This document shows positions 17,660-27,523 of a DNA stretch of 64,000 nt, in pieces (position 1 is the first letter of the stretch; the number at the start of each line of letters is the position of its first letter). Location of the stretch: contig NZ_LQBN01000001.1 of assembly GCF_001507535.1 (NCBI RefSeq), positions 744,001 through 808,000 on the forward strand, read 5' to 3'. Position numbers and translations under genes: made by a program. The stretch is from Thiomicrospira sp. WB1 (lineage in GTDB: Bacteria; Pseudomonadota; Gammaproteobacteria; Thiomicrospirales; Thiomicrospiraceae). Below the pieces are notes generated by a model that ran no database searches, was not told the origin of the DNA, and was given only the letters and a program-made list of their open reading frames with translations.

Positions 17660-17736
17660 GCCTCCTTAGCTCAGTTGGTTAGAGCACCCGACTCATAATC
17701 GGTAGGTCCACAGTTCAAGTCTGTGAGGAGGCACCA
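17660..17736 (+). tRNA. tRNA with CAT anticodon, probably tRNA-Ile2 (k2C-modified), else tRNA-Met
   Basis: A 77-nt cloverleaf: acceptor GCCTCCT/AGGAGGC with encoded CCA, D-loop AGCTCAGTTGG, anticodon loop CTCATAA, T-arm with TTCAAGTC. The anticodon stem (CGA/TCG) and the TTCAAGTC T-loop resemble bacterial tRNA-Ile2, which reads AUA after TilS modification, more than elongator Met. The acceptor alone does not decide. A CAT tRNA after rpoD is a recurrent gammaproteobacterial arrangement. It borders an AT-rich defence insert. Confidence 0.9.
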
Positions 17737-17947
17737 TTTATTAAGCCATTGACCTTACTGTCTATTGCCCAAATTTAGAGCTAATACAGAATCTCAATGC
17801 CTGAAGAATTGATTATGACATCGCTTATCTACAATGGAAGCACACTTTCAATACATTTTCGAAATAATGTACGTATGAATTGTTTTTGTACAGCTCTATA
17901 GGTTAATATGTTTTTTCTAGTGAAAATATCACACGGGAGTGATTAAA

Positions 17948-19324
17948 GTGCTTGTTCGTTTTGCCGTTGAGAATTTTATGTCTTTTCGTGAATCTGCTGA
18001 ACTGTCAATGGTGGCAAGTAGGGTTCAACTTCATCCTGATCATGTTGTTCGCCCTAAAAGACGAACAGGGTTACGACTATTAAAGTCTTCAGTGATATAC
18101 GGTGCGAATGCTTCAGGAAAATCAAACCTAATTAAGGGGATGAATTTAGCCCAAAAATTGGTGACGGCAGGGGAGGTGGCTGGTAAAAACCTTCCTTTTT
18201 CACCTTTTAAACTGGACAAAACTGCACTTAAGAAGCCGACGCGATTTGAGTTTGAAATAAAGTGCGGTGAAATATACTATGCTTATGGATTTTCAATGAA
18301 TAGCAAACGCTATGTTGAGGAGTGGCTATATGAAATTCATCGTAAAAAAGAGAGGTTGATTTTTGAGCGAGAGTATATTGATCAAAAAACTATCTTTAAA
18401 TTTGACGGGTTGAAAACAAAAACAGATTCGGATAGGCAGTTTCTTGAGTTTATTGGCAGGGGGACACCTGAAAATAGACTGTTCCTCCGAGAGTGCTTTG
18501 AGAGGAATGTTTTTAAGGACCTCTCTTACCTTTCTTCGTTAAAAACTGTATATGCTTGGTTTGATGATAGGTTGACAATTTTGTTCCCTAGTTCCAAGTA
18601 CGCTGGTCTCGAAATGGATCTTCATTCTGATGACCTTAATGTCGGTTTGCTTTCTACAGTATTAAATCATTTTGATACAGGTATTTCTAATTTAAGCCTA
18701 AAGAAAATTGACTTAAAGAATGATGCCCCAGAAATACCTGAGGAAGTAAAAGAAGAGGTTTATAAAAGGCTTGAAGAAAAAGAGGCTGCCTTGGTTTCTG
18801 GACCAAGAGGTATTCGTTATCATGTTTTCTTGGATTCAGATGGTCAGGCTTTTGCACATAAGTTGATGACCAGTCATCTTGATTCTGATGGTGATGAGGT
18901 TCAGTTCGAGCTAAATCAAGAATCTGATGGAACGCAGCGATTATTAGATATTGCACCTGGTCTTCTAGATCTACTTTCTCAAGATGAAGTGTCACAAGAC
19001 AAAGTCTATGTGATTGATGAACTTGACCGTAGTCTTCATACTGAAATTACAACAACTTTAGTTAATACTTTTTTACATATTACAGCTAACCGTGATAGTC
19101 AATTAATCGTTACTACACATGAATCTAATTTATTAAACCTTGATCTACTTAGAAGAGATGAAATTTGGTTTACTCAAAAGAATAAATATGGGCAGTCAAA
19201 GCTTTATTCTTTAGAAGAGTTCAAAGCGCGTTTTGATAAAGACATTCGAAAAGACTATTTGGTAGGCCGGTTTGGCGGAGTGCCTGTGATAAAAGATTTA
19301 TTAAAGGATTTGACCAATGCCTAG
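17948..19324 (+). CDS. AAA15 ATPase of an AbiL/RloAB-type abortive infection pair
   Basis: An OLD/SMC-like ABC-type ATPase of 458 residues. MLVRFAVENFMSFRES is the family start and GANASGKS (52-59) is Walker A. KVYVIDELDRSLH near the C terminus is Walker B, followed by a D/H-loop region LIVTTHESNLL. I choose the GTG at 17948 over the frame-first GTG at 17939, because GGGAG at 17935-17939 is then 8 bp away, and homologues start with M-L-(I/V)-R-F. The next gene starts inside its last codons (8-bp overlap), so the two are translationally coupled. Known relatives (RloA, AbiL, PARIS AriA) act in phage defence with a Toprim nuclease partner. Role here is inferred from pairing. Confidence 0.85.
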   Translation: MLVRFAVENFMSFRESAELSMVASRVQLHPDHVVRPKRRTGLRLLKSSVIYGANASGKSNLIKGMNLAQKLVTAGEVAGKNLPFSPFKLDKTALKKPTRFEFEIKCGEIYYAYGFSMNSKRYVEEWLYEIHRKKERLIFEREYIDQKTIFKFDGLKTKTDSDRQFLEFIGRGTPENRLFLRECFERNVFKDLSYLSSLKTVYAWFDDRLTILFPSSKYAGLEMDLHSDDLNVGLLSTVLNHFDTGISNLSLKKIDLKNDAPEIPEEVKEEVYKRLEEKEAALVSGPRGIRYHVFLDSDGQAFAHKLMTSHLDSDGDEVQFELNQESDGTQRLLDIAPGLLDLLSQDEVSQDKVYVIDELDRSLHTEITTTLVNTFLHITANRDSQLIVTTHESNLLNLDLLRRDEIWFTQKNKYGQSKLYSLEEFKARFDKDIRKDYLVGRFGGVPVIKDLLKDLTNA

Positions 19325-19970
19325 GCAGCGGCGCTCGTTCAATCGTATATCAGGAGTTAAAGATCCTTCTTTGATTGTTATTGCCTGTGAGGGTGAGGTC
19401 ACCGAATTGGCATATTTTGAGGGGGTACGAGAAAAGCTTGATGAAGCTGGATCAAAACTAAAAATTAAACCTTTACCTGCCCGAGAAAATAGCCATAGTG
19501 CTCCAAAATACGTTCTTGATCAAATGGACTCTTATAAGAAACAATATGGTAAAGATAGAGGTGATGAACTTTGTTTAGTAATTGACCGAGATGAACAAGC
19601 ATGGGAGACATCTGCTATTGCTGACGTTGCTCAGCAATGTTTTCAAAAAGATTATCTTTTGGCCTTAAGCAACCCATGCTTTGAACTCTGGCTACTATTG
19701 CACCATGAAGATGTTGACAATGTCCCTGAAGAACTTAAGAGACAATTTTTAGAGAACAACTGTAACTGTAGGTTTATAAAATCACGTCTTGTTAATGTTA
19801 TGGATGGATTTAATCCAGCAAACCTAAGAATTGATGATTTTTGGGAAAAAACAAACTTAGCGATAGATAGAGCAAGAAGTCTCGATGTAAATCCTGGAGA
19901 CAGGTGGCCGAATACGCTAGCAACGCGTGTTTATTTGATAATGGAAAAAGTTTTAGATCGTCTGACTTGA
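19317..19970 (+). CDS. RloB-family Toprim-like effector of the AbiL-type pair
   Basis: A 217-residue protein with the RloB pattern: CEGEVTELAYFEG near residues 24-36, LVIDRDE in the middle and LALSNPCFELWLLLHHED, then a C-terminal DRWPNTLATRVY. The Glu and Asp-x-Asp positions match the acidic metal site of Toprim nucleases. The first 10 residues are basic (PRQRRSFNR), as is common in RloB. It starts within the end of the ATPase gene. By analogy with AbiL and PARIS, the ATPase would sense infection and release this nuclease. Target unknown. Confidence 0.85.
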   Translation: MPRQRRSFNRISGVKDPSLIVIACEGEVTELAYFEGVREKLDEAGSKLKIKPLPARENSHSAPKYVLDQMDSYKKQYGKDRGDELCLVIDRDEQAWETSAIADVAQQCFQKDYLLALSNPCFELWLLLHHEDVDNVPEELKRQFLENNCNCRFIKSRLVNVMDGFNPANLRIDDFWEKTNLAIDRARSLDVNPGDRWPNTLATRVYLIMEKVLDRLT

Positions 19971-20062: not shown

Positions 20063-20287
20063 ATGCCTTACAAAACCATTCAACAACTGCCGGATTCGGT
20101 CAAAGACAACCTGCCCAAAGAGGCGCAAACCATCTATAAAGAGGCATTTAACAGTGCCTGGAAAGAGTACGCCGACCCTAAAGAACGTCGCGATGATGCG
20201 TCACAGGAAGAAGTGGCACACAAGGTAGCCTGGAGCGCGGTGAAAAACGTGTACCACAAGCAAAATGGGGAATGGGTCAAGAAGTAA
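20063..20287 (+). CDS. ChaB family protein
   Basis: A 74-residue protein matching ChaB: MPYKTIQQLPDSVKDNLP, then AQTIYKEAFNSAWKEY, and a C-terminal AHKVAWSAVKNVYHK. E. coli ChaB is linked to the ChaA cation antiporter, but its molecular role is unclear; no chaA is near. AAAGGAGATAA precedes the ATG. Its end overlaps the convergent hydrogenase gene by 11 bp. Base composition returns to the backbone level here, marking the right limit of the AT-rich insert. Confidence 0.9.
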   Translation: MPYKTIQQLPDSVKDNLPKEAQTIYKEAFNSAWKEYADPKERRDDASQEEVAHKVAWSAVKNVYHKQNGEWVKK

Positions 20288-22352
20288 CCCTTTTCAGAGA
20301 GAGAATCAGTGGCTTTGATTCAGTGCTCGTGTTCTGTTCGGTCAATATCAATTCAAAGTGACAATACTCGCCGTTAGGCGTGATCACGCTCAAATCTTCG
20401 CGATCGGCACGAGACGCCATTTTGTGGCGTTGAAACCCTGGACCAAATTGGCGCGGTGGCAAACGCTGTTCGATCAGGGCGGCAATCTGTGCGTGACCCG
20501 TTACTTCACCAAAAGGCGAGGCGGTGTTCCAACGCCCATCAGGATGAAACAGTTCGGCGGCGGCCTGGCCGTCACGACGATCGACGCAATCAAGAAAACG
20601 CATCAACATCAGTCGCTTGGAATGACGGGGCGCATAGTGGGTGTGCAGTAACGCGTGGGCCTGATCCGATCCGGGCTGCGTCAGCTCGGTTTGATAGAGT
20701 GTTTGAATGTCTGGGTTTTCATAAGAACGACGACGGGGCGCATTTTGATCAATGCTGTAAATGGCCTGCATGCGTTTTTCCAAAACCTGCGGGTCCATGG
20801 ATTTGGGTTCCCCACCACCGCCCAGGCAGCCTCCGACACAGGCCATGACTTCGATGGCGACAAATTCGTCACGCCACAGGTCGGTGGTCAGTAACTCTTG
20901 TGCTGCCGCAATGCCATTGCAGATCGCCACCTTGCCCACGCCAGGAATCTCGGCGGTTTTGATCCCTTTCGCCACCCCGCGCAGTTGGTGCCACTCCAGC
21001 GGCATTTGATCTTCCTGACCGATCAAGTGCGCGGCGGTGCGCACCACGGCTTCCATCACGCCGCCCGAAGCACCGAAAATTTGCGCTGCGCCGGTGCTTT
21101 CTCCCAGCGGATTGTCAAAACGACCGTCTTCGGGCAGGGCGTTAAAAGCAATGCCGCGGGTTTTGATCATGCGCGCCAGTTCGCGTGTGGTCAGCACCTG
21201 ATCCACATCACCGGAGACACCGGGGCGTTTCGACTCATCTTTTTTCGCGGTGCAGGGCATGATGCTGACCACATAGGGTTCGGCCTGACCTTGGGCGAAG
21301 TCATCGCCCAGTGAGCGGGCAAAGGCGCCGCGCTTGCTGAGTGCACCGTGCATTTGCTGAGGCGATTTGGTGGTGCTCAAATGGGGCAAAAGGTCGGGCC
21401 GATTGAGTTCCACCCAATTGATCCAGCCGGGACAGCATGAGGTGAACAGAGGCAGGTTTTTCTGCGCTTTCAGCCGATTTAACAGTTCGGTGCCTTCTTC
21501 CATAATGGTCAGATCGGCAGCAAAGTTAGTGTCGAAGACGTGATCGAACCCCAGTTGGCGCAAGGCATTGATCATCCGCCCGGTGCTGATGGTGCCGGGT
21601 TTCATGCCAAATTCTTCACTGATGGCCACGCGTGTGGCCGGGGCGACCTGCACCGCTGAAACCCGACGGTGATGGTCCAGTGTGTGGATCACATCATGCC
21701 AGTTGGGTGTTTCAATCAAGGCGCCAACCGGGCACACCAGCGTGCATTGGCCGCAGGAAATGCAGTTGGTTTCGGCCAGAGACCGATCAAATACCGTGAC
21801 TGGAATGCGCCCGGAACCCGGCTCGGCAAAACCGATAATGTGCAGTTGCTGACCCGGGTCGCCACAGGCTTCGGCACAAAGGCCGCATTCAATGCACTTG
21901 GACAAATCGCGCCAGATACTGGGCGAGGTGTGGTCGGTCAGGCGATGCTCAGGATGCACTTGTGACCCGCGTGCCAGTTTGGGCCAGACATCTTCCAGTT
22001 GGTATTCGCTCACGAGATTTTGAAACTGACAATCGCCATTGGCTTCGCAACGGATGCAGTCGTTCGGATGGCGTGCCAGTAACCATTCCAGATTGGCTTT
22101 GCGAAATTCGGTCAGTTCAGGCGTGTCGGTGGTGACCTGATCGCCATCCTTGGCTGGCGCAATGCAGGCAGGTTGAGATCGGTTTTCACTGCTGACGTCC
22201 ACCAGGCACATCCGGCAGACACCATGACAGGGCAAAAGCGGATAATAACAAAGCGTTGGAACATGCACCCCGGCGGCTTTGGTCGCATCCAGCAGCGTGG
22301 CACCGTTTTCAACTTCCACCGATTTTCCATTGACCGTGACGCTAAGCATCAT
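20277..22352 (-). CDS. [FeFe] hydrogenase with full Fe-S relay and a C-terminal SnoaL/NTF2-like domain
   Basis: A 691-residue, CpI-like soluble hydrogenase. In order: [2Fe-2S] domain (C35, C46, C49, C63); His-ligated cluster H95-x3-C99-x2-C102-x5-C108; two [4Fe-4S] motifs (C153/156/159/163, C197/200/203/207). H-cluster motifs follow: TSCCPGW (304-310), MPCTAKK (365-371), EVMACVGGC (501-509). The proton-relay Cys306 is kept. The small-subunit-like segment ends at LLHTHY (568-573). About 115 further residues (577-691) read like a SnoaL/NTF2 fold (FLDCVDRRDG, ELFHPDGRWN, FGEVTG), which I do not know from this family. GGGAGGG precedes the ATG pair at 22352/22349. HydE/F/G maturases are not in the window. 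No signal peptide; cytoplasmic. Confidence 0.93.
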   Translation of the reverse strand: MMLSVTVNGKSVEVENGATLLDATKAAGVHVPTLCYYPLLPCHGVCRMCLVDVSSENRSQPACIAPAKDGDQVTTDTPELTEFRKANLEWLLARHPNDCIRCEANGDCQFQNLVSEYQLEDVWPKLARGSQVHPEHRLTDHTSPSIWRDLSKCIECGLCAEACGDPGQQLHIIGFAEPGSGRIPVTVFDRSLAETNCISCGQCTLVCPVGALIETPNWHDVIHTLDHHRRVSAVQVAPATRVAISEEFGMKPGTISTGRMINALRQLGFDHVFDTNFAADLTIMEEGTELLNRLKAQKNLPLFTSCCPGWINWVELNRPDLLPHLSTTKSPQQMHGALSKRGAFARSLGDDFAQGQAEPYVVSIMPCTAKKDESKRPGVSGDVDQVLTTRELARMIKTRGIAFNALPEDGRFDNPLGESTGAAQIFGASGGVMEAVVRTAAHLIGQEDQMPLEWHQLRGVAKGIKTAEIPGVGKVAICNGIAAAQELLTTDLWRDEFVAIEVMACVGGCLGGGGEPKSMDPQVLEKRMQAIYSIDQNAPRRRSYENPDIQTLYQTELTQPGSDQAHALLHTHYAPRHSKRLMLMRFLDCVDRRDGQAAAELFHPDGRWNTASPFGEVTGHAQIAALIEQRLPPRQFGPGFQRHKMASRADREDLSVITPNGEYCHFELILTEQNTSTESKPLILSLKRVTS

Positions 22353-22515: not shown

Positions 22516-23076
22516 ATGGCCGGATCGTTGTTTGATCAGTTGAAAAGCTCGGGCTTGGTGGACGAAAAGAAAGCCAAACAAGTGCAACGAGAAAAGCACC
22601 AACAAAACAAAAAAAGCAAAGCCAACAAGGCCAAAAAAGGCCAGAAGCAAACCAGTCAGTCAGCACAATTGGCTCAGGAAGCGGCGCAAAAACAAGCCGA
22701 GCAGGCTCAGCGTCTTAATCAGCAGAGAGCACAGCAGCAAGCCCAAAAAGCCCTGCAGGCCGAGTTGAAACAAATCATTGAAAACAGTCAGATCAAAGGC
22801 TATGCAGGCGACATTCGCTATCACTTCGTGGACGATGGCCAAGTGCAAACCCTGCAGGTCAATGCCAAAACTCAACAGCAGCTCGGCAAAGAATCATTAA
22901 GGATTGTGCGTTTCAAACAGGGCTATGCCCTGGTTTCAAAAGAGACCGCCAACAAAATTGCCCAGCGCGATGCATCGTGTTTGGTGGCAGTGCCAAGCGA
23001 CAAAAATGAGAATCTTTCTGAAGAAGACGCAGCCTATTACGCCAAGTTTAAAATTCCGGACGATCTGATCTGGTAA
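22516..23076 (+). CDS. DUF2058 family protein (YaiL-like)
   Basis: A 186-residue protein with MAGSLFDQLKSSGLVDEKKA at the start, a long Lys/Gln/Ala-rich coiled coil (about 20-95), and a globular end (GDIRYHFVDDGQVQTL...CLVAVP...AAYYAKFKIPDDLIW). All these are typical of DUF2058/YaiL, a conserved gammaproteobacterial family of unknown function, sometimes called nucleoprotein/polynucleotide-associated. Divergent from the hydrogenase, with 163 bp between starts. Confidence 0.9.
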   Translation: MAGSLFDQLKSSGLVDEKKAKQVQREKHQQNKKSKANKAKKGQKQTSQSAQLAQEAAQKQAEQAQRLNQQRAQQQAQKALQAELKQIIENSQIKGYAGDIRYHFVDDGQVQTLQVNAKTQQQLGKESLRIVRFKQGYALVSKETANKIAQRDASCLVAVPSDKNENLSEEDAAYYAKFKIPDDLIW

Positions 23077-23754: not shown

Positions 23755-26244
23755 TTGAATCCTCGCATTAAAAATGCATTTTTAAATGGAAGACTTGTCT
23801 TAATGCTAGGTGCAGGAGCATCTATTGGTTGTAAAAACTCTCTAGGTGAAGATCCTCCTTTAGCTGACGCGCTAGCTAAATTACTAGCAAAGGAAATTGG
23901 GGAAGAATATTCTAATGAGGATTTATCCGAGGTTTACACTGCCGCAAAAGAAAGCATGGGAAACCAAATCCACCTATTTTTTGAAAAGTATTACAAGCAC
24001 TGTCAGCCGTCCAATGAATACAAAAAACTTGTACAGTACCCCTTTTTCAGAATCTATACCTTGAATATCGATGACGGCTTTGAGAAAGCGGCGCATCAAT
24101 CCGGTCTCCAGAAATTCAATGTTAAAAATAGAGATGACAATATCTCTGAAGTAGATCAATTTTATAGGACATTAGATTATATTAAGCTAAACGGTGATGT
24201 TAATTTACCTAAGAAAGGGTTTATTTTTTCGCCTCAAGAATATGCTATGGGGTCAGTGAGTGAACACCAATGGTATGATGAGTTAGGCAGTGATTTTCAG
24301 AAATATACCTTCCTTTTTATTGGTACTCGACTAAAAGAACCATTATTTCTACATCATGTTGAAAAATATAAAAAAAGAACCGGAGGTAGTCAACAAAAAA
24401 GCTATATTCTGGTGCCGAATTTAACTCCTATCCAAAAACGTAGTTTAGAAGCATCAAATATTGAACACTTAGAAGGCAAACTAAGTGATTTAGTTGAATG
24501 GTTAGAAGCTGAGTTTTCAACTCATCCAACGGGAAAAGACATAGTTTTAAAGACTCGTCCTGAGTTAGCTTTAGAAAGTGATGAAAATTTAAGTTTGTTT
24601 TCAGGTGTAATTCCCGTAAACAGATCATCTTTATACCTAATAAAAAAGGATACGTACAATTCATCTATAAAAAACTTTTACAAAGGATTTAAACCGACTT
24701 GGTTTGATTTGCTTGAGGGAGTTCCAGCTAAACTAGAAAAACCAGATCAATTCTATAATCGAGTATTAAAAGATGATAATGCAAAACCTCTCGAATTACA
24801 CCTGATTTTTGGTTCGGCTGGTTCCGGAAAAAGCACTGCATTAAAGCAGATGGCCTTAAACATCTCGGATGAAAGTATTAGGTCTGTCTACTTTATTGAA
24901 GAATACAAAAACAACTTTCAAGAACTTATTTTTGAGTTAGATCGAAGGCACAAAAAACCCTATTATATTTTTATAGAAAGAATTGGTGATACAGCACAAC
25001 AAGTTCTTGAAATAATTAAATCGTCAAAATCAACAAAAGCTATTTTTATAAGTTCTGAAAATCCTAAAATATGGAGAACAAGAGTTGAGGAATATCTAAG
25101 AGAATATCTAACATCATCAATAGATATTTCTCAAATAACAGAAAATGACGCAGAACAAATATTAGAGAAATTAAAAATTCATGGAAATTGGACTAGACTA
25201 GGTCAGATGTCCGCTAAAAAAAGAAAGATTGAACTTTATAAAAAATCTAAACATCAACTTCTAATTGGTTTAATAGAAGCGACTTCTGGTGAGGGGTACA
25301 ATCAAATAATTAAAAAAGATTATTCTGCGATTGAATGTGAATCAGAAAGATCTTTACTTCTACTTGCTGGTTTGGCGACAACACAAAGAGTTCCTGCAAA
25401 TGAGGCAACTTTGACTAGGGCGTTATCACACCTTGGTTTGAATTGTAATGTACATCAACTGACAGATAAGATGGAAGGAATTGTTACATATAACAATGGG
25501 AGTGTTTTAACTCGACATAGGGTCTATGTTGAACGTCTATTTAATAATTATGTTCCTCATAAAGAGTTGCTACAAGTAATTGAGGCGTATATTCAAGCAT
25601 TTTCAGTATACAAGTTTCCAATTGTCCAAAATATCTCTCGTAATGAAGGCTCAATTTATAAGCATTTAGTTAATGCAAAATCCCTAAAAAAGTTACTTAA
25701 AAACAATAAGGAAAGTGTCTTGTCTGTTTATGAACGGTTTGAAAAGACATTTGAAAACGAAGGACTCTTTTTGATGCAATATGGATTAGCTCTCCGTTCT
25801 TTTGATGAAAACACTCAAGCTTATGAAAAGTTAAGGATAGCGCATCAAGCATTCCCAGAATCTCCGCATATCGAGCATGCGTTAGCTCAACAACGAATTA
25901 TTTTAGCTTGTTCTGAGTCTGATGAAACTATAGCTTTAGCACACTTCAACGAAGCAGAGGATGTATTAAATCGACTCAACACAGCTAATCTTAGAGGCTT
26001 TTCAGATCGATACCCTATTATTACTTTATCTGAAGGTCATGTGAAAGTTATGGAACATTTGGGTTACAAAGATGAAGCAAAAGTCTTAGCGAGGCAATAT
26101 CATGATCGAATTAGCAAACAAGCTAATGCAAAATCAAATCACAGGCTTGCTCAAACAATTAGCAATCTAGCAAGATATTATGTTTCTGGGATTTGGCCAG
26201 AAAAACAACTTGAAGTGGTTAACAAATCTCGGACGATAAATTAA
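23755..26244 (+). CDS. SIR2-domain NTPase, Avs5-like candidate antiphage protein
   Basis: An 829-residue, AT-rich gene. The N-terminal SIR2_2-type domain (about 1-260) shows LGAGAS (18-23), TLNIDD with the NAD-contacting Asn104, and FLFIGTRLKEPLF. The usual catalytic His motif reads KLNGD (144-148), so His is replaced by Asn. A P-loop NTPase follows, with Walker A GSAGSGKS (353-360) and a possible Walker B IFIERIGD. The C-terminal third is helical and TPR-like. SIR2-STAND proteins (Avs5) deplete NAD on infection; this assignment rests on domain order only. Start is TTG, supported by GGAG 5 bp upstream; no ATG alternative fits. Confidence 0.8.
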   Translation: MNPRIKNAFLNGRLVLMLGAGASIGCKNSLGEDPPLADALAKLLAKEIGEEYSNEDLSEVYTAAKESMGNQIHLFFEKYYKHCQPSNEYKKLVQYPFFRIYTLNIDDGFEKAAHQSGLQKFNVKNRDDNISEVDQFYRTLDYIKLNGDVNLPKKGFIFSPQEYAMGSVSEHQWYDELGSDFQKYTFLFIGTRLKEPLFLHHVEKYKKRTGGSQQKSYILVPNLTPIQKRSLEASNIEHLEGKLSDLVEWLEAEFSTHPTGKDIVLKTRPELALESDENLSLFSGVIPVNRSSLYLIKKDTYNSSIKNFYKGFKPTWFDLLEGVPAKLEKPDQFYNRVLKDDNAKPLELHLIFGSAGSGKSTALKQMALNISDESIRSVYFIEEYKNNFQELIFELDRRHKKPYYIFIERIGDTAQQVLEIIKSSKSTKAIFISSENPKIWRTRVEEYLREYLTSSIDISQITENDAEQILEKLKIHGNWTRLGQMSAKKRKIELYKKSKHQLLIGLIEATSGEGYNQIIKKDYSAIECESERSLLLLAGLATTQRVPANEATLTRALSHLGLNCNVHQLTDKMEGIVTYNNGSVLTRHRVYVERLFNNYVPHKELLQVIEAYIQAFSVYKFPIVQNISRNEGSIYKHLVNAKSLKKLLKNNKESVLSVYERFEKTFENEGLFLMQYGLALRSFDENTQAYEKLRIAHQAFPESPHIEHALAQQRIILACSESDETIALAHFNEAEDVLNRLNTANLRGFSDRYPIITLSEGHVKVMEHLGYKDEAKVLARQYHDRISKQANAKSNHRLAQTISNLARYYVSGIWPEKQLEVVNKSRTIN

Positions 26245-26334
26245 GTTTCTCGCCTACTACAACAGGCGCAACGCCATCGTTATAACTGTGTGGACTTTGC
26301 CAAATTTACTTGACCACTACAGGAAAAACCGCGC

Positions 26335-27192
26335 ATGTTATGGAAAGAAGCCGTGGTTCGGTTCATACGCGAAAAGCAAAATAAAGACACGGCCAATGAA
26401 GTGAGCATCTTTAAATACTTGGATGCTTACTTTGGCCATCTTTATGTCGATGAGATTCGGCGGATGCATGTTGACGACATCATTCAGCAACGACTGAAAG
26501 AAGGCGTCAGCAATACAACCATCAACCGATTGCTTCAGAAACTGCGGGCGGTGCTCAACATTGCACACAAAGAATGGGAGGTCAAATGCGACCCTCCCTA
26601 CATTAAGCTCTTGAAGGAACCGAAAAAGCGTGTCCGATGGTTGAGCGAAGGGGAAGCCCAACGCTTGATCATGGCTCTACCATCGCATATTGCGGATATG
26701 GCGACCTTCTCACTGGAAACCGGGCTGAGGGAATCGAATGTGACCTTGTTACGCTGGGATCAGGTCGATTTGTCAGAACGGATCATCTATGTGGAAGGGG
26801 ATGACATTCTAAAAGGGGATACCGCGTTTGTGGTGCCATTGTCGGATGTGGTCATTGACGTGATCAAACGACAGGTGGGCAATCATCCTGAGCGGGTGTT
26901 CACTTATAAAGGGAGACCTGTCAGGCGGGCAAACACCAAGTCATTCAAGAATGCGTGCGAACGTGCTGGGATCGAAAACTTTCGCTGGCATGATTTTCGG
27001 CATACTTGGGCGACTTGGCATGTCCAGAATGGAACGCCTTTGGCAGTGCTTCAAGAATTAGGTGGCTGGTCGGATTATAAGATGGTCAAGCGATACGCTC
27101 ATTTTAGCCATAAGCACCTAAAACGCTTTGTAAACCGCTCCCAGAGCGGCTCTGCTACAAATATCGCTACATTGGCTTCCGTTAGCCAATAA
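26335..27192 (+). CDS. Tyrosine recombinase/integrase, N-terminally shortened
   Basis: A 285-residue integrase. The SAM-like core-binding domain (about 1-90) is followed by the catalytic domain, with Arg in SLETGLRESN, HDFRHTWAT (His-x-x-Arg), then LGGWSDYKMVKRYAH with Trp and the nucleophile Tyr. Family members usually have about 60 more residues, an arm-type DNA-binding part. The frame upstream still reads QEKPR, matching the family linker, but a TGA lies four codons beyond it. So the N-terminal part seems lost and activity is doubtful. Base composition is nearer the backbone than the SIR2 gene. It points toward tRNA-fMet, a plausible attachment site. Confidence 0.85.
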   Translation: MLWKEAVVRFIREKQNKDTANEVSIFKYLDAYFGHLYVDEIRRMHVDDIIQQRLKEGVSNTTINRLLQKLRAVLNIAHKEWEVKCDPPYIKLLKEPKKRVRWLSEGEAQRLIMALPSHIADMATFSLETGLRESNVTLLRWDQVDLSERIIYVEGDDILKGDTAFVVPLSDVVIDVIKRQVGNHPERVFTYKGRPVRRANTKSFKNACERAGIENFRWHDFRHTWATWHVQNGTPLAVLQELGGWSDYKMVKRYAHFSHKHLKRFVNRSQSGSATNIATLASVSQ

Positions 27193-27245: not shown

Positions 27246-27322
<77 letters not shown>

Positions 27323-27395: not shown

Positions 27396-27523
27396 GGGGG
27401 GAATCGATTTAAAGTCGGTTTTTCAGAAGAAAAGTTATTTAATTGGTTTTTTTAGGTTTTCTATTTGCCTTGTCAGGGAAAACTGGTTTAATGGGAAATG
27501 AGTTTTGAATGAAGGAGTTGTGC

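Follow-up and report, generated by a model that had tools for sequence, protein, structure and literature searches.

A C-terminal SnoaL/NTF2-like domain marks a family of orphan group A [FeFe]-hydrogenase homologues in Pseudomonadota whose genomes lack recognisable HydE, HydF and HydG

Introduction

Group A [FeFe]-hydrogenases, of which CpI and the HydA1 subunit of bifurcating complexes are the closest described representatives, share their accessory iron-sulfur (Fe–S) domains (F-domains), H-domain, small-subunit part (SSU) and cluster ligands with the protein considered here. Its gene, a hydA homologue, lies in a window of 64,000 nucleotides from Thiomicrospira sp. WB1 (contig NZ_LQBN01000001.1, positions 744,001 to 808,000); "the window" denotes this whole stretch, and coordinates are counted from its first letter. 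Unlike CpI and HydA1, the window's protein carries an additional SnoaL/NTF2-like domain at its C-terminus and reads GGGEP instead of GGGQP in its L3 motif. It also departs from the HydA1 of HydABC complexes, in that the genomes of its family have no match to the maturases HydE, HydF and HydG above the profile cut-offs and no HydB or HydC was seen beside the gene.

Hydrogenase cores with added modules have been described before (PMC11926857, among others), but the modules are different ones. CbA5H bears an SLBB domain and is matured with HydEFG (PMC13397568, a paper seen in part, with no occurrence of "SnoaL" or "NTF2"). Other cores are fused to rubrerythrin (some of the plasmid matches reported below are annotated as such) or to PAS domains (PMC6984386, likewise in part). 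With respect to maturation, the accessible part of the latter paper states that HydA is inactive and contains the [4Fe–4S] cluster only if E. coli produces it in the absence of HydEFG (PMC6984386). Genomes that hold a HydA homologue without a full maturase set also have precedents, in Rhodospirillum rubrum and in some anaerobic eukaryotes; these are scattered organisms, whereas the case presented here comprises 28 genomes and a single protein family. In the literature on HydA without maturases and on the host genera, the only prior mentions that we recognised are in the available portions of PMC4967309 and PMC4744846.

In this regard, PMC4744846, in the passages available, reports that Greening and colleagues assigned to group A1 the then hypothetical proteins of several species, T. 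chilensis, T. kuenenii and T. pelophila among them, and that none of these three consumed H2. T. chilensis holds the SnoaL fusion (our locus L036) and is the only one of the three H2-assayed species that was checked for it. The tail goes unmentioned in the passages of that paper on these proteins, and "hydE" occurs 0 times in the text that was available. No paper joining SnoaL with hydrogenase and H-cluster was found in a literature search that left most subscription papers outside and may have missed bracketed spellings, and neither the SnoaL domain nor the missing maturases of the listed group A1 members was found in print.

Results

All the F-domains of group A, the H-domain and the SSU are recognised by Pfam within residues 2–576 of the window's protein. 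The group A model TIGR02512 scores 433.5 bits, over its cut-off of 405.95, and assigns the protein to this group; NF040763, the model of the NADH-dependent [FeFe] hydrogenase A6, scores 666.7 bits, below its cut-off of 765, and leaves it outside that type. The closest solved structures are HydA1 of the bifurcating complexes 8a6t (488.8 bits) and 7q4v (439.7 bits), with CpI at 350.6 bits, and the alignments to solved HydA1 and CpI end at query residues 573–577, leaving the tail unmatched.

A first, sequence-only reading of the window, made without database searches, had proposed that a SnoaL/NTF2 fold follows the normal end of the hydrogenase and had placed it at 20277–20630, correctly within two codons. 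The profiles agree with that proposal and, together with Fe_hyd_lg_C, confirm the combined architecture: on the full protein SnoaL_2 reaches 30.2 bits over residues 585–632 (Pfam cut-off 27) and SnoaL_4 24.2 bits, marginally above its cut-off of 24, and on the tail alone the scores are 31.4 and 27.5 bits, respectively. Both profiles match 18 of 18 aligned family tails at E<=0.01 when the tails are searched alone. Structure prediction of the tail from the 18-sequence alignment gave the NTF2 fold that the reading had anticipated, with a mean predicted local distance difference test score (pLDDT) of 87.3 and a predicted template modelling score of 0.83. The predicted tail shows the cone-like alpha+beta fold of the SnoaL/NTF2 superfamily; its top fold match is Sthe_2403 (5tgn_B; Z 12.2, root-mean-square deviation 2.3, 96 aligned residues), and ketosteroid isomerases, LinA and NTF2 follow at Z 10.6–11.5. 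Likeness of fold to SnoaL/NTF2 proteins of known structure (Sthe_2403, ketosteroid isomerase and the NTF2-like domain of the Janthinobacterium FMO, 8acs; Z 10.6–12.2) comes with an identity of just ~10–23%, and a sequence-only search of the tail against the PDB returned nothing significant (best E 0.2). On the strength of the model, the tail is a predicted SnoaL/NTF2-like domain with a match far above chance. The full-length structure model has a mean pLDDT of 63.6, mostly below 50 in the Fe–S region, and the placement of the tail relative to the H-cluster therefore cannot be read from it.

The maturases were searched with profiles for HydG (TIGR03955, cut-off 312.15 bits), HydE (TIGR03956, 254.6 bits) and HydF (TIGR03918). 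Among distinct genomes with the SnoaL-type protein, none exceeded the cut-off for HydG (0/28), HydF (0/26) or HydE (0/25). Half of the 28 family genomes are 99–100% complete and HydG was found in none of these 14; its absence is therefore no assembly gap. In the genome of the window, HydG and HydE are both unmatched at E<=1e-3, and nothing exceeds the HydF cut-off. Across a set of 55 genomes comprising that of the window and its relatives, none of the three rises above cut-off and the HydG profile finds nothing whatever at E<=1e-3; weak HydE matches occur in 14 of the 55, none of them among the 11 family holders. The HydF-profile matches listed, three of which come from the window's genome, are confined to positions 2–180 of 392, the GTPase part. 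The 20 genomes behind loci L021–L040 likewise yielded no HydG, HydE or HydF above cut-off (0/20), their weak matches being one 19.8-bit HydG piece (G074) and HydE pieces in nine genomes, of 42.9 bits at most. In three further family genomes the profile search found neither HydG nor HydF (G385) and no HydG (G428 and G482, searched for HydG only). HydE, HydF and HydG, whose presence in the genome marks a functional [FeFe]-hydrogenase, were thus not found. The sequence-only reading had envisaged an active [FeFe]-hydrogenase regulated through a ligand bound by its tail; the hydEFG search, which that reading had itself named as a test, is negative in the window's genome and does not support this idea, and no maturase stands above cut-off in any other family genome searched.

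As a positive control, each maturase search puts 1 of 14 control genomes above cut-off (Thermotoga maritima for HydF). A second comparison is offered by ordinary HydA carriers of the same phylum, whose match stops short of the tail: HydG is present in four of five (G147, G156, G267 and G689, not G365) and HydF in three of four, with the two profiles scoring 368–549 bits in such carriers. This contrast covers HydG and HydF. The Fisher p value for family against ordinary carriers is 0.00012 for HydG, or 0.0007 when two KSB1 metagenome-assembled genomes (MAGs) are added to the controls, and 0.004 for HydF with these MAGs among the controls; all are rough because the genomes are related.

The fusion is real and conserved. 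In place of the single-genome oddity that the tail might have been, it marks a whole family whose members are 70–94% identical to the window's protein: full-length homologues (74–100% identity) occur in 10 of the 55 genomes, that of the window included, and a contig search yielded 20 loci, 18 of the SnoaL family (70–94%) and two of a KSB1 type. Short peptides, including one from the tail, were taken from the window's protein as queries; the search therefore reaches close relatives only and carries no information on the abundance of tail-less HydA. Matches extend to at least residue 683 in 27 of the 28 family genomes; at L033 the match stops at residue 599 and the tail was not seen. Duplicate genomes (G055, G056, G069 and G070, of G005, G021, G019 and G025, respectively) were counted once. 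The hosts include Hydrogenovibrio (H. halophilus), Thiomicrorhabdus, Thiomicrospira including MAGs, Gallionella, Gallionellales MAGs, a Nitrosomonas MAG, Pleionea sediminis and other gamma- and betaproteobacterial MAGs, and count sulfur and iron oxidizers among them. One copy, in the Thiomicrospira MAG G019 (L011, L035), is broken: a single TAG lies within the match to query residues 95–189 and the match restarts only at residue 272; its close relatives are intact and the break may be an assembly error.

At the two KSB1-type loci (L038, L039) the match, of 45% identity, ends at residue 576; besides a HydABC-type operon they encode a further HydA-like protein, joined to a segment that by eye resembles a histidine kinase. 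The tail is also unmatched in all 15 plasmid records with a HydA homologue, where matches end at query residues 570–582. Of 369 genomes sampled evenly across the class, seven had a homologue at E<=1e-60, three of the SnoaL type (the window's included) and four ordinary, in agreement with the earlier remark that [FeFe] hydrogenases are rare in gammaproteobacteria. Among 398 genomes sampled from the phylum there were four, of which one is ordinary and three are of the SnoaL type, namely the window's genome and G428 and G482, family carriers outside the class with 70–71% identity. This identity outside the class, taken as the sole basis, suggests that the tail fusion may have spread between classes.

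A maximum-likelihood tree built from 23 family members and six ordinary HydA separates the two sets by one branch with a support of 100/100, whose length under midpoint rooting is 2.81 on the family side and 1.06 on the ordinary side. Branching within the family is poorly resolved, the bootstrap did not settle and the program warns of long branches meeting there. A long stem followed by a tight crown would be expected from a change of function and its later fixation, of which a tree alone is no proof.

The sequence-only reading held that all catalytic and Fe–S ligands are intact, and the alignment bears it out: the cubane ligands C307, C367, C505 and C509, a mark of group A, are invariant in 21 of 21 full-length members. 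Elsewhere the family departs from CpI. The equivalent of CpI Q325 varies between Q and T, those of S232 and S357 are Ala, and the L3 change to GGGEP is fixed in the family, against GGGQP in the six ordinary HydA compared. In total 54 positions are fixed in 23 family members and unseen in the six ordinary HydA, 26 of them before residue 220, in the Fe–S relay. (The 21- and 23-member full-length sets omit duplicates and rows cut by contig ends; L075 and L092 stand outside the comparison of 23 with six.) The L1 motif of some ordinary proteins, namely the HydA of L038, L039, L072, L073 and L074 and the HydA1 of 7q4v, is TSCSP rather than TSCCP, which aligns Ser with CpI C300; G267 and G147, both hosts of such a TSCSP protein, possess HydG and HydF.

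Between the window and H. halophilus (L021, 94% identity), residues 1–576 have a nonsynonymous divergence (dN) of 0.014 and a synonymous divergence (dS) of 0.386, a dN/dS of ~0.04, and the tail has a dN of 0.147 and a dS of 1.183. In four other pairs dN is well below dS in core and tail alike, with dS saturated in one tail. By these substitution rates, core and tail are both under constraint, which in most pairs is stronger in the core. The features of the gene are collected in Table 1.

Table 1. Features of the hydA homologue in the window (coordinates of the window; residues of the encoded protein)
Feature	Residues	Coordinates	Strand	Evidence
Whole gene, orphan group A [FeFe]-hydrogenase homologue with C-terminal SnoaL/NTF2 domain	691 aa	20277..22352	-	single unbroken open reading frame
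[2Fe–2S] domain (Fer2_4)	2–77	22122..22349	-	Pfam
His-Cys3 [4Fe–4S] domain (NADH-G_4Fe-4S_3)	84–121	21990..22103	-	Pfam
Two [4Fe–4S] ferredoxin motifs (Fer4)	148–215	21708..21911	-	Pfam, alignment
H-domain (Fe_hyd_lg_C)	233–513	20814..21656	-	Pfam, 272.6 bits
Fe_hyd_SSU, small-subunit part of the hydrogenase fold	523–576	20625..20786	-	Pfam, 73.1 bits
SnoaL/NTF2-like C-terminal domain	577–691	20280..20624 (+ stop codon)	-	Pfam, fold search
L1 motif TSCCP (equivalents of CpI C299, C300)	304–308	21429..21443	-	alignment
L2 motif MPCTAKKDE; cubane ligand 367, pocket Lys 370	365–373	21234..21260	-	alignment
L3 motif EVMACVGGCLGGGGEP; cubane cysteines 505, 509	501–516	20805..20852	-	alignment

In the window, the gene stands alone between a convergent ChaB gene (20063–20287), which overlaps its end, and a divergent DUF2058 gene (22516–23076); H. 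halophilus (L021) apparently has the same two neighbours, ChaB- and DUF2058-like by eye. A conserved neighbourhood was sought as a clue to function and rejected, since no neighbour cluster is common to more than four family loci; the clustering took open reading frames (ORFs) of at least 70 residues (41 sequences), with flanks of L001–L011 of at most 1.5 kb and several short MAG contigs. The sole larger non-hydrogenase cluster, of eight loci, belongs to sequences that had been retrieved because of a NuoG-like or an ordinary HydA match. By eye, neighbours include YeeE/YedE-like (L003, L011, L031, L035), SelD-like (L007, L009) and GltD-like proteins (L007, L010, L036), a BFD-like [2Fe–2S] protein (L023) and, on the opposite strand, dihydroorotate-dehydrogenase-like and pyruvate:ferredoxin-oxidoreductase-like proteins (L040). 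Some of these are redox proteins, none widely recurrent.

HydB and HydC beside hydA, the arrangement of bifurcating or NADH-dependent HydABC enzymes, were not seen by eye in the two ORFs on each side at the family loci, to which the inspection was confined. An association with H2 metabolism through [NiFe]-hydrogenases was likewise not seen, the large subunit being absent from the window's genome and present in one of 11 family-bearing relatives. Base composition gives no foreign signature that would indicate horizontal transfer into the window (GC 0.564 for the gene against 0.533 for the window; GC at third codon positions 0.61 against 0.66 in ORFs taken by eye as dnaG and rpoD).

At 17939–19970 an AAA_21 ATPase and an RloB-like protein of low GC (0.37–0.39), with best PADLOC matches to AbiLi and AbiLii, form a predicted AbiL-type phage-defence system. 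At 23755–27192 an 829-residue SIR2-like protein with an nSTAND NTPase (GC 0.34, ThsA-like PADLOC match) is adjoined by a tyrosine integrase (26335–27192) and is likely a defence gene on a mobile element. Two tRNA-Met(cat) genes, at 17660–17736 (+) and 27246–27322 (-), bracket the defence genes, hydA and the integrase. In H. halophilus L021 the DUF2058- and ChaB-like genes directly flank hydA and are followed by a gene that by eye resembles the one at 27509 of the window; the defence genes therefore look like insertions around an older hydA locus.

Discussion

Taken together, these features lead us to lean towards the view that the SnoaL-tailed family is not an active hydrogenase but a redox protein that has been repurposed and does without maturases, since the architecture, the missing maturases, the lack of H2 uptake and the strong constraint are fitted most simply by such a change of role. 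An ancestral group A HydA may have lost its HydEFG partners and gained a C-terminal NTF2/SnoaL domain, possibly in this order, followed by a long stretch of change; the fused protein would then have been fixed as a stand-alone iron-sulfur protein and spread among Pseudomonadota. With no HydEFG, the H-domain should hold the [4Fe–4S] cubane only, with no [2Fe] subsite and no H2 turnover. Electrons would be relayed between the [2Fe–2S], His-Cys3 [4Fe–4S] and ferredoxin clusters and the buried cubane, and the emptied pocket, its [2Fe] site vacant, might bind a small molecule that is not H2, or reduce it. For its part, the NTF2 tail might dock a hydrophobic ligand or make the protein oligomeric.

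Several observations weigh against this view. The residues C306, E286, E289, S326, R293, K370, M365, M503 and F426 are invariant in 21 of 21 full-length members. The first five are the equivalents of CpI C299, E279, E282, S319 and R286, which we take to form the proton path, and the remaining four those of CpI K358, M353, M497 and F417, presumably part of the [2Fe] pocket. Such invariance is puzzling in a protein in which the [2Fe] subsite is never present, and that of the proton path mildly favours a filled active site; the argument is a weak one because 170 of the 301 H-domain positions are invariant anyway. The absence of maturases is, moreover, not unique to the SnoaL family, since the KSB1 MAGs of L038 and L039, with an ordinary HydABC operon and a completeness that is not stated, are also devoid of HydE, HydF and HydG above cut-off, as is the ordinary carrier G365 (96% complete) of HydG and HydF. 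The KSB1 loci were for this reason rejected as a clean maturase-bearing control, and they weaken the contrast. The published H2 test addressed uptake under the culture conditions used, and not evolution or the purified protein (PMC4744846, in the part available). Lastly, substrate, partner and ligand are all putative.

The alternative that survives best, although we hold it to be unlikely, is that the protein does function as a hydrogenase, or as an H2 sensor, with a [2Fe] subsite assembled along a different route, without HydE, HydF and HydG. The invariance of the H-cluster ligands, pocket and proton-path residues in all 21 members, the core dN/dS of ~0.04 and the absence of HydG from the 14 nearly complete family genomes speak for it. 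Such a route would place an H-cluster, which is O2-sensitive, in several host genera that we take to be aerobic, and no conserved neighbour offers itself as a candidate new maturase. The lack of H2 uptake in three species reported as carriers, one of them confirmed here, also counts against it (PMC4744846, in its accessible passages). A version that we find slightly less likely would have a second biosynthetic route supply a catalytic H-cluster, or another organometallic cofactor, to the same pocket without HydEFG, with the NTF2 tail as a built-in scaffold or gate.

We are more doubtful that the protein is a sensor or regulator unrelated to H2, in which the Fe–S chain would sense a gas or the redox state, a signal that the NTF2 tail would relay through a change in its assembly. 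NTF2-like domains do act as oligomer hubs, the CaMKII association domain matches the predicted tail at Z 10.6–11.1, and other [FeFe]-hydrogenase relatives have been proposed as sensors (PMC13104023, in the portion available). The 24 Pfam families listed for the window's protein, however, include no kinase, cyclase or DNA-binding match, and the gene has no conserved neighbour at all.

A true hydrogenase matured by ordinary but highly divergent HydE, HydF and HydG that the profiles miss is quite improbable. Weak partial HydE matches, present in 7 of the 14 distinct family genomes to which loci gave the only access, and the single HydG piece in G074 could be taken as traces of such proteins, but they lie far from the cut-offs, the window's genome offers neither HydG nor HydE at the lenient threshold of E<=1e-3, and the HydF matches listed stay within the first 180 positions. 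The HydG and HydF profiles, in addition, score hundreds of bits in ordinary carriers of the phylum. That the gene is a decaying relic of a lost hydrogenase system is barely credible: the unfound maturases and the broken copy in G019 would fit it, but intact copies of 70–94% identity persist in several families and beyond the class, and the low dN/dS of the core contradicts decay.

Some family members were already listed as group A1, and the new half of the finding is the SnoaL tail together with the absence of maturases; of these two, the absence across the family is the more interesting. Surveys count such genes as [FeFe]-hydrogenases (group A1 for Thiomicrospira in the available part of PMC4744846), from which an H2 metabolism of the hosts may be inferred. 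If it is true that the family never holds the [2Fe] subsite, these survey calls would be wrong and the hydrogenase fold would have acquired a new redox function in these bacteria; if the family does hold it, the accepted rule that HydEFG are required would fall.

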